Shown here in pieces: positions 32,700 to 38,934 of a stretch of DNA of 64,000 nucleotides. The DNA is from an uncultured Lachnospiraceae bacterium. GTDB taxonomy: Bacteria > Bacillota > Clostridia > Lachnospirales > Lachnospiraceae. The position numbers and the translations under genes are program-made. Below the pieces are notes generated by a model, which saw only the letters and a list, made by a program, of their open reading frames with translations, did no database searches and had not been told where the DNA came from. Position 1 is the first letter of the stretch; each line of letters starts with the position of its first letter. The stretch is taken from NCBI GenBank assembly GCA_947626985.1, contig CANQUG010000002.1, forward strand, positions 1 to 64,000. Reading direction: 5' to 3'.

Positions 32700-33926
32700 T
32701 TATTTTGCACTGATTTTATGATATTTTTTCTTTCCGCGGCGAACCACCCGGCTGTTTGCCAGAAGATCCTCCCTGGAAAGGGTGTATGCGAAATCCGTAA
32801 TTTTCTCTCCGTCCAGAGTCACGCCGCCCTGGGTGATGGCCCTGCGGCCTTCGGAGCGGGTGGGTACCAGGCCCGTCTTCACCAGCACGGTGATGAGGTC
32901 GATGGCGCCATCCGTAAACTCGTCCTCGCCAAACTCTGTGGAGGGCATGTTTTCGGTGTCCGCGCCTCCCGCAAAAAGCGCCCGCGCTCCTTCCTGAGCC
33001 TTCTTCGCCTCTTCCTCGCCGTGCACCAGCTTCGTCAGTTCATAAGCCAGGATTTCCTTGGCCTTATTCAGATCGCTGCCTTCCCATTTCGCCATCTCCT
33101 CAATCTCCTCCAGGGGAAGGAAAGTGAGAAGACGCATGCACTTGATCACGTCGGCGTCGTCCACGTTTCTCCAGTACTGGTAGAAATCGAAGGGGGAAGT
33201 CTTATCGGGATCCAGCCATACGGCTCCGGCCTGGGTCTTGCCCATCTTCTTTCCCTCGGAATTCAGAAGAAGGGTAATGGTCATGGCGTATGCGTCCTTG
33301 CCCAGCTTGCGGCGGATGAGCTCCGTTCCGCCCAGCATGTTGCTCCACTGGTCGTCGCCGCCGAACTGCATGTTGCAGCCGTATTTCTGGAACAGCATGT
33401 AGAAGTCGTAGCTCTGCATGATCATGTAGTTAAACTCCAGGAAGCTCAAGCCACGCTCCATCCTCTGCTTGTAGCACTCTGCCGTAAGCATACGGTTTAC
33501 GGAGAAATGGGGGCCGACCTCCCGAAGAAGCTCCACGTAGTTCAGGTTCATAAGCCAGTCCGCGTTGTTCACCATAAGGGCCTTTCCGTCGGAAAAATCG
33601 ATAAAACGCTCCATCTGCTTCTTGAAGCACTCGATATTGTGCTGGATTGTCTCCACGGTCATCATCTGACGCATATCCGTTCTGCCGGAGGGATCGCCGA
33701 TCATGCCGGTACCGCCGCCCAGCAGGGCGATAGGCCGGTTGCCCGCCATCTGGAGACGCTTCATCAGGCACAGGGCCATGAAATGTCCCACATGAAGGCT
33801 GTCCGCCGTGGGGTCAAAGCCGATATAGAAGGTGGCTTTTCCCTGATTGACAATCTCGCTGATCTCCTTCTCGTCTGTTACCTGGGCAATCAGACCTCTT
33901 GCCTTCAGTTCTTCCCAAAGTGTCAT
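32700..33926 (-). CDS. tyrS: Tyrosine--tRNA ligase
   Basis: 408 aa from [49 protein letters not shown]. Confidence 0.98.
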
Positions 33927-34049: not shown

Positions 34050-34440
34050 AAAAAAATGCCCGGTTCCTGTCCTTTTAGGACGAGAACCGGGTCCCGTGAT
34101 ACCACCTAAATTCACAGAAGACTCGCGCCTTCTGTCTCAGCAAGTGACGATATTCTCCCCAATCTTCCTTATGAAATATCGGACAGCACAGCATCACTCC
34201 GGCAGGATAACGGTCGCCGTTCCGTCGCAGCCTACTGTTCTTTCGGTGCGCAGCTCCGGGATGTATTCACTCAGGTTCCACAGGCGCCTCTCACCGGCCG
34301 GCAGCTCTCTGTCCGCTTTCCCTGAACTACTTCTTCCCTTCCAGGCCTTTTTCTTATAGATGATCCAGTGGCCGGAAGCCGCCTCTCCTCCCCGTGTCCG
34401 GACAGAAACGGCAGACTTCTCCATGAAGATCATAAAACAT
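34050..34440 (-). ncRNA. Tyrosyl T-box riboswitch leader of tyrS
   Basis: Minus strand T-box AGGTGGTATCACGGG (34093-34107) followed by terminator CCCGGTTCTCGTCCTAAAAGGACAGGAACCGGG-T7 (34050-34092); UAC in GUGAAUACAU at 34263-34265. Confidence 0.95.
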
Positions 34441-34446
34441 ATCGAC

Positions 34447-34475
34447 AGTATACAAATCGATTTTTTATTTGTCAA
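34447..34475 (-). promoter_or_regulatory. Sigma-A promoter of T-box-tyrS
   Basis: Minus strand TTGACA - 17 bp - TATACT. Confidence 0.85.
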
Positions 34476-34552: not shown

Positions 34553-35206
34553 TTAAATGATTGTATTTCTTACTTTCTGCTTTACTTCACTGATTAATCC
34601 ATGCAATGTAGTGCAGGGACACATATCAGACGGCCTCACCCTGCCATCTTTCAAATACATTTGGAGCCGATTCTCGGCGAGCTGAACAGCCTTTGATTCA
34701 TTTCCAAAGCGATTAAGCACAGCATAAATCTGCGGATGATCCTTATGATATTCCTGACCGGTTCGCTGTTCAAAAGTCTCTGCAAATTTCCTGCAGCATA
34801 CCACTGAGTCACTATAAGAATGCATTTTGCCAAAGTACGCGTCAAACCATATTTCGATACAAGGATTGGACCAACCGACGCTGACGCCCTCTTTCTGTGC
34901 CTTTGCAATGATTTCATCAAAGTTCGTAACTCTGTCCCGGTCAAATACAATCCAGGGCTGACCATATTGCGGTTCAAGAGACGCCTGTTCTTTGCAGGCC
35001 TTAACCAGTTCCTGCGTTTTCGCCCTGGAAACTCTGATGACAATACGTCCCTGCAGCTCTTCAGGAAGGGAATCCCGGAGACCGTACAGATAGTTTTCTT
35101 CGGTTTCCCTGGCGTCGGTCACGATAAAGTAACAGCCGAGATCCGGGACTCTCGTTCTAAAGACTTCTCTGGATTTTCGTTTTCCGGTTCTGTCTGATCT
35201 TGCCAT
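34553..35206 (-). CDS. rloB: RloB-like protein (putative Toprim-type nuclease partner)
   Basis: 217 aa; IVTDARETEENYLYGL and WIVFDRD acidic motifs; directly follows an AAA ATPase. Confidence 0.8.
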   Translation of the reverse strand: MARSDRTGKRKSREVFRTRVPDLGCYFIVTDARETEENYLYGLRDSLPEELQGRIVIRVSRAKTQELVKACKEQASLEPQYGQPWIVFDRDRVTNFDEIIAKAQKEGVSVGWSNPCIEIWFDAYFGKMHSYSDSVVCCRKFAETFEQRTGQEYHKDHPQIYAVLNRFGNESKAVQLAENRLQMYLKDGRVRPSDMCPCTTLHGLISEVKQKVRNTII

Positions 35207-35208
35207 AT

Positions 35209-36474
35209 TTACTCCTCCTTAAACATATCGAAATATTTAAGAGTAGGAATTGCCCCATATTTCCCCAGAAGATAGTTTTTCTCGTAACTTTCGTCCTTTC
35301 GTATTTTAGCGCCGTCGTCGTCAATAAAGTCCGCAAGGGAATAAAGTGCTGACACTCCGGATGAATCTTTCTCCGTGAACCATATCTCATCTCTGCGCAG
35401 AAGATTGTTGGATAACTGCCAGGAATCGTGCGTTGTAAAGACTAACTGCGCATGATTCGGGTTGGTCTCCGGATTCAGAAACATAATCAAAAATCCCCGA
35501 ACAAGCAGTGGATGCAGCCGTGCGCTTAACTCATCAACAAAGAGAACACTTCCCGTATTTAACGTATCCTGCAAAACCGGATAAAGCGCAAACATTTTCA
35601 ATGTACCGTCAGACTCATCCTGCAGAGGAATAGATACTGTTTCATCTGAACCTGCCACATGATGGACTGCATCTATTCTTACGCGCTCCGCATCTTCATC
35701 ATCACCTTTAATGACTTCAACATTAAAACCGATAATGGATGGATCAAAAGCGGCAAAATACTCTATCACTTTCTTTTGAACAGCTTTGTCGTCTGCAAAT
35801 CCTTCCGGAATCAATGATGAAAGGAATGCATTTTCAAATGGATTTCCGAAATTGGCAAAGTTAACATTATAAAACCAGTCTCTAATCATTTTGAGTCTGG
35901 AAATCCGCTGTTTGGCGCCGAGTGAAACAATGAGTGTCTCATCATAAAGAGATACTTTTATAATGTCCTGCATCTTTCCCGGCAAACCGGATAAATCAAG
36001 TTCATTTCCATTTCGGTAAAATATGGATTTGTATTCTCTTGCCGTTTTCGCTTTGGAATTAAGCCATTCTTCTGCCACTCCGTTTTGATTCAGCGTAAAG
36101 CCATAATTATATGACTTATAATTATTTTCCTCAGAAATTATAAAATAGACTTCAAAAGAAGACTCAGCATCTTTGCCTGCGGTATCAAATAGAAACGGAG
36201 TAAGTCTGGGTTTTCTCGTTTTTGATTTTTTATCGTCGATTTCTCCGCCATAGGCAAAAGACTCTATTACATAAGTGGTCATATAGCGAAACGCTTCGAT
36301 TACATTGGACTTCCCGCTTGCATTTGCGCCAAATATGGCAGCTGTTGGCAAAATCTTTTCTGCGCCTGCCTGAATGACCCGGCTGGAGTATTCCGTAATT
36401 TTGGTCGCAGAGAGATCAAGAATCGTATCATCCTTAAATGATTTGAAATTTTTAAATCTGAATTGAATGAGCAT
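35209..36474 (-). CDS. rloA: RloA-like AAA ATPase (AAA_15/21, SMC-like ABC fold)
   Basis: 421 aa; FRFKNFKSFKDDTILDLSA; Walker A GANASGKSN; Walker B GSVLFVDEL; H-loop VFTTHDSW. Confidence 0.85.
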   Translation of the reverse strand: MLIQFRFKNFKSFKDDTILDLSATKITEYSSRVIQAGAEKILPTAAIFGANASGKSNVIEAFRYMTTYVIESFAYGGEIDDKKSKTRKPRLTPFLFDTAGKDAESSFEVYFIISEENNYKSYNYGFTLNQNGVAEEWLNSKAKTAREYKSIFYRNGNELDLSGLPGKMQDIIKVSLYDETLIVSLGAKQRISRLKMIRDWFYNVNFANFGNPFENAFLSSLIPEGFADDKAVQKKVIEYFAAFDPSIIGFNVEVIKGDDEDAERVRIDAVHHVAGSDETVSIPLQDESDGTLKMFALYPVLQDTLNTGSVLFVDELSARLHPLLVRGFLIMFLNPETNPNHAQLVFTTHDSWQLSNNLLRRDEIWFTEKDSSGVSALYSLADFIDDDGAKIRKDESYEKNYLLGKYGAIPTLKYFDMFKEE

Positions 36475-36494: not shown

Positions 36495-36522
36495 ATTATA
36501 TGCATTTTTTTCAAAAAATCAA
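36495..36522 (-). promoter_or_regulatory. Putative promoter of the rloAB-like operon
   Basis: Minus strand TTGATT - 16 bp - TATAAT. Confidence 0.6.
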
Positions 36523-36556
36523 CATCTATTTGAGAGAAAGTCTCAAATAGATGTTG
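36511..36556 (-). terminator. Intrinsic terminator of rnhA
   Basis: Perfect 16-bp arms CAACATCTATTTGAGA/TCTCAAATAGATGTTG, then ATTTTTT on the minus strand. Confidence 0.9.
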
Positions 36557-36569
36557 TTCACATATATAT

Positions 36570-37043
36570 TCAGATTCCCGGATCCTCTATCAGATCCTCC
36601 CCGTCCGCCGCGGAGGTCGCCAGATGATCGCATCTCTCATTCTCCTCATGCCCGTCGTGGCCCTTCACCCAGTGAAAGGTCACGCGATGGGGCTGCTTCG
36701 CCTTCAGGAGCCGTTTCCAGAGATCCACATTTTTCACGGGCTTATCCTTCCCTCGCATCCAGTTCTTTTTCAGCCAGGAATCGATCCAGTGGCTGTTAAA
36801 GGCATCCACCAGGTATTTGGAATCTGAATAGAGCTCCACCTCGCAGGGCCGGATCAGCGCTTCCAGTCCCACGATGGCCGCCATCAGCTCCATGCGGTTA
36901 TTGGTGGTTTTCACATACCCCTGGCTGTATTCCCGCACATGAAGCTTTCCCCGGCTGTCCGTGTAGTGAAGCACGGTCCCGTAACCGCCCGGACCGTTGG
37001 GATTCCCTCTGGCGGAACCGTCCGTATAAATCTTTACCAGCAT
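36570..37043 (-). CDS. rnhA: Ribonuclease HI
   Basis: 157 aa; KIYTDGSARGNPNGPGGYG, NNRMELMAAI, YSDSKYLVDAFN, HWVKGHDGHEENERCD. Confidence 0.97.
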   Translation of the reverse strand: MLVKIYTDGSARGNPNGPGGYGTVLHYTDSRGKLHVREYSQGYVKTTNNRMELMAAIVGLEALIRPCEVELYSDSKYLVDAFNSHWIDSWLKKNWMRGKDKPVKNVDLWKRLLKAKQPHRVTFHWVKGHDGHEENERCDHLATSAADGEDLIEDPGI

Positions 37044-38788
37044 CCTTCTTTTCCTTCCTGCGCAGTATCGCGCTCATTACCAAAACTGCTTTGCAGCTTC
37101 TCCCACACTCCCGTACTTTCAAACTCCGCCGCCGCCCGGGACGCTTCCTTCACCAGCTCCGGATCATACCCCAGAATACCCAGAAGCCGGATAGCGTTTC
37201 TGGAGGATGCCCTCCCCTTCTTCAGCAGGTAGGGAAACACCACCGTGTCATCCGTCACTTCCTCCTGAAAATGATAATTTTCATAAATATCCTCCAGAAT
37301 ATAGGACAATTCAATATCATGAGTAGCCGCCAGAGGCAGCACCCAGCTTCTGGAAAGCTCCTTCAGAATCCTGGAGGAGGCAGCGATCCGCTCGATGGTA
37401 TTGGTGCCCCTGAGCACTTCGTCGATCACGCACAGCAGGGGCTCCTCCTTCTCACATTCCTTCAGGATCCGTTTCAGAGAATTAATCTCCACGATAAAAT
37501 AACTCTCTCCCGACGCCAGATCGTCCCGGAGAGCCATGGAAGTCATCACCTTCAAAAAAGGCGCCCGGTACCGGGAACAGGTGCAGATTCCCAGCGTCTG
37601 GGCCAGAATACTGTTCAGCGCCATGTTTTTCAGAAAGGTGGATTTTCCCGAAGCATTGGATCCGGTAATCAGGATCCCTCCCGACGCCTCCACGGAATTG
37701 GCCACCGGCTCTCTGATCAGAGGATGATAAAGATCCTCCGCCAGCACGGCCGCCCGTCCCCCGTACCAGGGCAGAAATTCCGGCCTGCATTTCAGAGGAA
37801 GAAGTTCCCGGAAAGAGGCGATGGAAATAGCCGCGTCCAGCTCTCCCATATTATCCAGAAGGAGCATCATCTGCTCCGTCCTTTCCTTCACCGCCCGCAG
37901 ACTGGAGTTATAGGCGAGAATATCCACATGGAACAGCATCCTCACGTAATCCAGCAGCGCCTGGGCGGGATCTCCCATCCCGTCGTTTTTGCTGGTCAGG
38001 AGGAACATCCTCCTCCGGACTCCGGCAAAGGCCGCCTTGCCCTCCCGGATTCCCTCCATCTGCCTGCGCACCTGGGGCCAGTCCACCGTTTCCATCCGAT
38101 CCGCCGCTGAGAGAATCCGCATCAGGCTGGAAAAACAGCTCAGATACATCTCGATCGTCGTCCGCTCTTTCCCGTTCATATACTGAACACAGCTCACAAC
38201 GCAGCAGACCATGAAAAGCAGGCCTCCCTGAAGGGGATAAAACAGCATGGACACCAGTGCCAGGAGCAGTGCGCCGTCCATCACCAGATGTGGAACAACG
38301 GATACCGCCGGCGCATCCTCCAGGGCAAAGAGAACATCCGACAGAGAGCCGAATCTGTTCTTGCCCACCTGAGCCAGATACCACTGCATCTTCTCCCGCT
38401 CCTCCTCATGGGAGGCGAAAAAATCCACCAGTTCCTCCCGCTCCCGGAACTCCTCCCCGGAAAACACAGGAATGCGCATCATGGCGTACAGCACATCCTC
38501 CCCAGGAGAGGAAAGAGTCTGATTCACCATCATATATACCCTGTCCATGTCCAGATCGTTCCAGGTGATATCGTCTATGACGAAACGCCCTCCCTGCTTT
38601 CTCCGGAAATAATGGGAAATTTTTTCCATCTCCCCCGTCTCGTATTCCTTCTCCGGGACATTTCCGTAGGCCCGCCGGACCCTGCGCAGAAACATTTTTT
38701 TATTTTTACTCCGTTCCCGCAGAATTCCCAGGGCAAAACATCCCGCCACAAAAACTGCAGTCAGTACCACTGCAAGATAAGGATCCAT
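37034..38788 (-). CDS. MutS-family ATPase with N-terminal TM region
   Basis: Start MDPYLAVVLTAVFVAGCFALGIL; ILITGSNASGKSTFLKN, LCVIDEVLRGTNTIERI, ATHDIELSY. Confidence 0.88.
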   Translation of the reverse strand: MDPYLAVVLTAVFVAGCFALGILRERSKNKKMFLRRVRRAYGNVPEKEYETGEMEKISHYFRRKQGGRFVIDDITWNDLDMDRVYMMVNQTLSSPGEDVLYAMMRIPVFSGEEFREREELVDFFASHEEEREKMQWYLAQVGKNRFGSLSDVLFALEDAPAVSVVPHLVMDGALLLALVSMLFYPLQGGLLFMVCCVVSCVQYMNGKERTTIEMYLSCFSSLMRILSAADRMETVDWPQVRRQMEGIREGKAAFAGVRRRMFLLTSKNDGMGDPAQALLDYVRMLFHVDILAYNSSLRAVKERTEQMMLLLDNMGELDAAISIASFRELLPLKCRPEFLPWYGGRAAVLAEDLYHPLIREPVANSVEASGGILITGSNASGKSTFLKNMALNSILAQTLGICTCSRYRAPFLKVMTSMALRDDLASGESYFIVEINSLKRILKECEKEEPLLCVIDEVLRGTNTIERIAASSRILKELSRSWVLPLAATHDIELSYILEDIYENYHFQEEVTDDTVVFPYLLKKGRASSRNAIRLLGILGYDPELVKEASRAAAEFESTGVWEKLQSSFGNERDTAQEGKEGCW

Positions 38789-38934
38789 CCGATCTTCTCC
38801 TCCTTCAGATATTCTCCGCTGATCCCGTCCGGGAAACATCCCTGTTTCTCGCCGGCGCGCCCTCCGGGATTTCCTGTCTGCCACCCTGTCCGTTGTTTTC
38901 CACCATCATACTGCCTGCGCTCTTTCTTTACAAT

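Follow-up and report, generated by a model that had tools for sequence, protein, structure and literature searches.

Which kind of system, if any, do the two adjoining genes between rnhA and tyrS of this uncultured Lachnospiraceae bacterium form, how did they come to lie there, and what might control them? A sequence-only reading of the stretch of DNA analysed here (64,000 nucleotides, hereafter the window) had proposed a RloA/RloB-like ATPase-nuclease pair in a putative anti-phage island, and both open reading frames were found at the positions and in the interval it had given. The ATPase gene (35209..36474, minus strand, 421 aa) is the upstream member and is followed after 2 bp, as read from the ORF positions, by the RloB gene (34553..35206, minus strand, 217 aa), with transcription running from the rnhA side toward tyrS. 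The left-hand neighbour, rnhA (36570..37043, minus strand, by ORF reading), lies outside the module, and the right-hand neighbour is tyrS (about 32700-33926, minus strand).

Assignment of the gene pair to AbiL

Profile searches placed the ATPase in Pfam AAA_21 (E=2.5e-32) and the downstream protein in Pfam RloB (PF13707, E=1.4e-29), each match passing the gathering cut-off; from the label AAA_15/21 that the ATPase had been given, the AAA_15 half fell away, as that match lay below its Pfam cut-off. The best PADLOC models were AbiLi for the ATPase (2.3e-89; 297.7 bits, versus 109.1 bits for AriA) and AbiLii for RloB (2e-16, the alignment covering model positions 24-90 of 170 only), and a pair from a lactococcal prophage, which bears the annotation 'abortive phage resistance protein', scored in PADLOC like the present pair. 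Motif inspection of the ATPase revealed a Walker A (GANASGKSN, 49-57), an ABC signature (ESDGT, 287-291), a Walker B (VLFVDE, with D314 and E315) and an H-loop (H349 D350), and across 44 ATPase homologues the Walker A, the signature (ESxGT), the Walker B and the H-loop were invariant or nearly so. With an AbiLi-type ABC ATPase whose Walker A, signature and Walker B are intact, an AbiLii/RloB-family gene immediately downstream on the same strand, and near-invariant Toprim-type acidic residues in its product (E36, D89 and D91), the pair is an intact AbiL-type module, a known kind of anti-phage system, and the closest named system is lactococcal AbiL (AbiLi/AbiLii).

AbiL is an abortive-infection system of Lactococcus lactis (Deng et al. 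1999, as cited in PMC10440598) and has both protein families, the gene order and the operon architecture in common with the present pair, which differs in being chromosomal and in another lineage; against the lactococcal prophage copy, identity is 39% across the aligned 25% of the ATPase. The earlier description as a stand-alone defence-type pair held, but its wording that this may be a defence unit understates the case, since the system to which it belongs already has a name and has been studied by experiment. The name AbiL had been missed, as had a conserved inverted repeat in the promoter and a second pair of AbiL type, on a different contig of the same genome (L021, G000 contig C1:132758-134636), whose ATPase and RloB are 36% and 25% identical to those studied here.

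Homologous loci show how consistently the two genes stay together. Among the 81 AbiLi-bearing loci examined (80 recruited from bacterial genomes through the ATPase and one viral contig through RloB), 73, spread over many phyla, had a RloB match that follows the ATPase in the same orientation, and in 66 of these its distance from the ATPase stop was -160 to +30 bp. The eight others comprised two in which the contig ends before the RloB position (L092 and L090), one with an internal deletion in RloB (L080), one with a disrupted RloB remnant (L128), three with no recognisable intact RloB (L100, L124 and L144), and L094; split or short RloB frames were also present in L082, L085, L104 and L109. 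In L080 and L128 the ATPase is intact beside the damaged RloB. Loss of RloB beside an intact ATPase is consistent with RloB being a costly toxin, but the frequencies of broken RloB and broken ATPase are not comparable, as the ATPase was the query that brought in nearly all loci. Broken RloB copies would also suit a reading of the pair as a decayed or silent passenger, or as a chance juxtaposition of unrelated genes, but here both genes are intact with all motifs, the promoter is intact and the pairing is kept across phyla, which leaves that reading highly improbable. At L094 (L094:420-4007), an AbiLi homologue (58%) without RloB has a CBASS SAVED-HNH effector and a cyclase directly after it, possibly an effector replacement or an island fusion.

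Comparison with other systems narrowed the assignment. The rlo loci of type I restriction-modification (R-M) likewise join an AAA ATPase to a member of the RloB family (PF13707); unlike them, the present pair is not in an hsd operon, and no R-M gene was seen among the proteins scanned in the 64-kb window, in line with the sequence-only reading. One homologue (L075) has adjoining genes that look like hsdR/M/S by sequence reading only. The parallel that had been drawn with PARIS and OLD-type systems survives as analogy and not as class membership. PARIS (AriA/AriB) has an ABC ATPase and a separate Toprim effector, as here, and provides a template for mechanism; membership was rejected, as the best match of the ATPase is AbiLi and not AriA and the effector is not DUF4435, RloB having matched PF13707 only and the genome having yielded no DUF4435 (AriB-type) match. 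OLD and Gabija GajA also combine ABC ATPase and Toprim functions, but in fused form, whereas here the two are separate ORFs with no UvrD partner, and membership of OLD/Gabija was rejected on the separation of the ORFs. Septu was set aside as well, the partner being RloB and not an HNH protein (PtuB). A PADLOC scan of 24 neighbouring proteins gave a single match, of DrmC type.

Horizontal arrival upstream of tyrS

The pair was horizontally acquired, as three observations attest. It is absent between rnhA and tyrS in 13/13 congeners with a readable interval, the empty interval measuring 97-780 bp; GC is 0.40 in the ATPase gene and 0.46 in the RloB gene versus 0.53 for the whole window, with GC3 at 0.38 and 0.47 versus 0.57-0.76 in recognised neighbouring genes; and the pair nearest to it, in an uncultured Acetatifactor (L072, ATPase 92% identical), adjoins an MFS transporter gene and not rnhA. 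The AT-richness relative to the flanks and the empty site in relatives, both raised in the sequence-only reading, were thus confirmed, and the outcome it had named as counting against it, a pair universal at this locus with host-like composition, does not hold, the site being empty and the composition foreign.

DNA identity between L072 and the window starts about 10 bp past the rnhA stop, where the inverted repeat lies. The term 'island' proved generous, since only two genes and their promoter were inserted: horizontal arrival stands, the implied extent does not. Between the RloB gene and tyrS lie the tyrS promoter (TTGACA-17-TATACT, 34447..34475, minus strand, by promoter pattern), which is intact beyond the insertion, and the T-box leader of tyrS (34073..34352, minus strand, Rfam RF00230, 106 bits), outside the module; the tyrS promoter pattern is present in 12/13 empty-site congeners. 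Because the insertion lies upstream of this regulatory region, tyrS control need not be disturbed. On the other side, a MutS-family ATPase-like protein (37034-38884, minus strand) adjoins rnhA, and a MutS-like gene is found near rnhA in several congeners too, with another gene adjoining rnhA elsewhere.

Homologous pairs are flanked by genes for Gabija, further AbiLi, T4SS coupling proteins and relaxases, and also occur near CBASS, in defence islands, on plasmids and in phage records; 179 plasmid records contained an ATPase match.

RloB as a putative Toprim nuclease and the proposed mechanism

The E...DxD motif that had been picked out in RloB recurred across the family, with E36 conserved in 57/58, D89 in 58/58 and D91 in 56/58 aligned sequences (57 of them homologues), and E118 was conserved in 58/58 as well; these four are the predicted metal-site residues. 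In the AF2 model of RloB (pLDDT 91.9) a strand spans 24-30, E36 opens the next helix, and a strand at 82-89 runs into D89-x-D91. Such an order of strands and helix, with E and then DxD, is the Toprim order. A bridging RloB homologue of 138 aa (L175, G050 contig C121), which adjoins a related AAA ATPase in another genome, matched RloB (3.6e-19) as well as OLD-like_TOPRIM (9.3e-7, above cut-off) in Pfam, and hhalign set the TE and DxD of RloB on OLD Toprim residues in a weak match (probability 68.7%). A RloB-Toprim relation has also been reported by HHpred (PMC10440598). No PDB entry matched the RloB model in Foldseek at E<=0.001, sequence and profile searches of the PDB returned chance matches only and no Toprim chain, and the Pfam families listed for RloB members include no Toprim model; relatives provided too few RNase M5 and DUF4435 matches to make a profile comparison useful. 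As the PDB and Pfam searches were null, the assignment draws on the motifs, the bridging homologue and the weak profile match, which together make RloB very probably, if not provenly, a Toprim nuclease, in keeping with the Toprim-like site suggested earlier.

The AF2 model of the ATPase (pLDDT 87.6) matched Rad50, PtuA and OLD heads in Foldseek at E 1e-9 to 1e-12. This fold, together with the OLD-like Toprim relation of RloB, could also belong to an OLD/Gabija-like Rad50-nuclease complex that degrades phage DNA, not RNA, without killing the cell, but the two-gene architecture, like the family's toxin behaviour, resembles that of PARIS and AbiL, and we judge such a complex unlikely here.

We consider it likely that the pair is a horizontally acquired AbiL abortive-infection module in which the ATPase restrains the RloB nuclease. 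For this module we infer a course of events in which the Rad50/SMC-like ABC ATPase (AbiLi) would serve as both phage sensor and restraint, its homo-oligomer keeping the RloB (AbiLii) Toprim nuclease inactive until a phage factor brings about an ATP-dependent rearrangement that releases it. Restraint and release of this kind seem fairly probable by analogy with PARIS, in which the AriA hexamer keeps AriB sequestered up to the sensing of a phage trigger and AriB, a two-metal Toprim tRNase, loses its activity in E26A (PMC12409363); AbiLii itself has been described as a toxic effector (PMC10440598). Freed RloB would then cleave cellular nucleic acid through a metal site on E36, D89 and D91. Its likeliest target may be RNA or tRNA, by analogy with AriB of PARIS, and an RNA substrate is a guess that we put forward with more doubt than confidence. 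Cleavage would arrest translation, such that the infected cell would be lost before phage release.

A conserved inverted repeat in the AbiL promoter

Upstream of the ATPase gene lies a perfect inverted repeat whose 16-bp arms enclose a 5-bp loop, CAACATCTATTTGAGA-ctttc-TCTCAAATAGATGTTG (36520..36556, minus strand), with the core TGAGA-N5-TCTCA (36531-36545). The predicted promoter of the pair, TTGATT-16-TATAAT (36495..36522, minus strand, by promoter pattern), overlaps the outer end of this repeat with its -35 box. At other loci with homologous pairs the repeat recurs in the same upstream position: the exact core was present in 16/88 AbiLi-homologue upstream regions versus 0/2165 control windows drawn from the same loci, and with <=1 mismatch in 35/88 versus 3% of controls. 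Although spacers of 2-10 bp were allowed in homologues and controls alike, the spacer was 5 in all 16 exact cases, and after removal of near-identical regions 42 loci had the core at <=2 mismatches. Recognised -35 boxes mostly lie exactly 8 bp past the core and are followed after 16-17 bp by a TATAAT-like box, a repeat/-35/-10 geometry shared by about 20 homologous loci. At arm positions 6-14 pairing is more frequent than between shuffled partners (z 2.5 to 4.3, from related sequences that are not independent and shuffles uncorrected for shared ancestry), and the equal geometry across different phyla is the stronger argument. Long perfect arms of differing sequence also occur, of 23 and 22 bp in two Spirosoma and of 28 bp in L099. 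Both AbiL pairs of this genome have the exact core, in the second pair 60 bp before the start codon, among nine exact cores genome-wide. The L094 promoter retains a perfect 16-bp inverted repeat. In another genome (G028 contig C2:754233-754259), which had no RloB match, the full core-plus-TTGA pattern lies about 1.4 kb from an OLD-like_TOPRIM match and may be there by chance.

The repeat is not a universal AbiL feature. Of the copies examined, those of enterobacterial plasmid and Klebsiella phage origin are without the core, and the lactococcal prophage copy, unlike the present promoter, lacks the exact core; the core therefore marks a clade of AbiL systems and not all of them. A terminator of rnhA is disfavoured, as the core is absent after rnhA in 13/13 empty-site congeners and recurs before AbiLi genes with other neighbours, and also by its position in an Enterococcus plasmid copy, where it lies 20 bp before the start codon and downstream of a -10-like box. 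That the repeat acts as an RNA element in the operon transcript is disfavoured by its position upstream of the -10.

Since the repeat travels with the genes between phyla, the protein that reads it is probably encoded by the module. Its conservation suggests module-encoded autoregulation, and the dyad, as an operator in the module's own promoter, probably holds expression low. That the AbiL complex, through either the ATPase or RloB, binds this hairpin-like dyad in its own -35 region is a serious candidate that we place somewhat below an even chance.

A conserved promoter dyad is also typical of autoregulated toxin-antitoxin operons, and together with the antitoxin-first order and close coupling of the genes it would fit a stand-alone toxin-antitoxin or genomic-stabilisation pair, in which RloB would be the toxin, the ATPase the antitoxin, and the genes kept by addiction and not for defence. 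Toxicity neutralisation is known for such a pair, the TOPRIM_OLD(D44):AAA(D29) system of C. algidicarnis, with a RloB-class toxin and an AAA antitoxin validated in laboratory neutralisation assays (PMC10440598). The family is, however, named for phage resistance, and its homologues lie on phages and near Gabija and CBASS, so that addiction by itself seems a rather improbable explanation; toxin-antitoxin and abortive-infection roles are not mutually exclusive.

With the pair read as an AbiL abortive-infection module, the conserved promoter dyad is the only new point about it; the literature searched, among whose results the 1999 AbiL paper was not included, yielded no AbiL promoter dyad and no core sequence. 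The present pair adds to the family a clean and intact AbiL on the chromosome, for which the empty site can be identified and whose genome has a second, divergent AbiL. If the AbiL complex does bind the dyad, a whole clade of AbiL systems would have a portable operator of their own encoding, with toxin-antitoxin-style autoregulation and possibly a coupling of phage sensing to derepression. As the dyad keeps a fixed geometry in distant bacteria and travels with the genes, its regulator is probably encoded by the module, which makes both the control of AbiL and DNA recognition by the ATPase testable.
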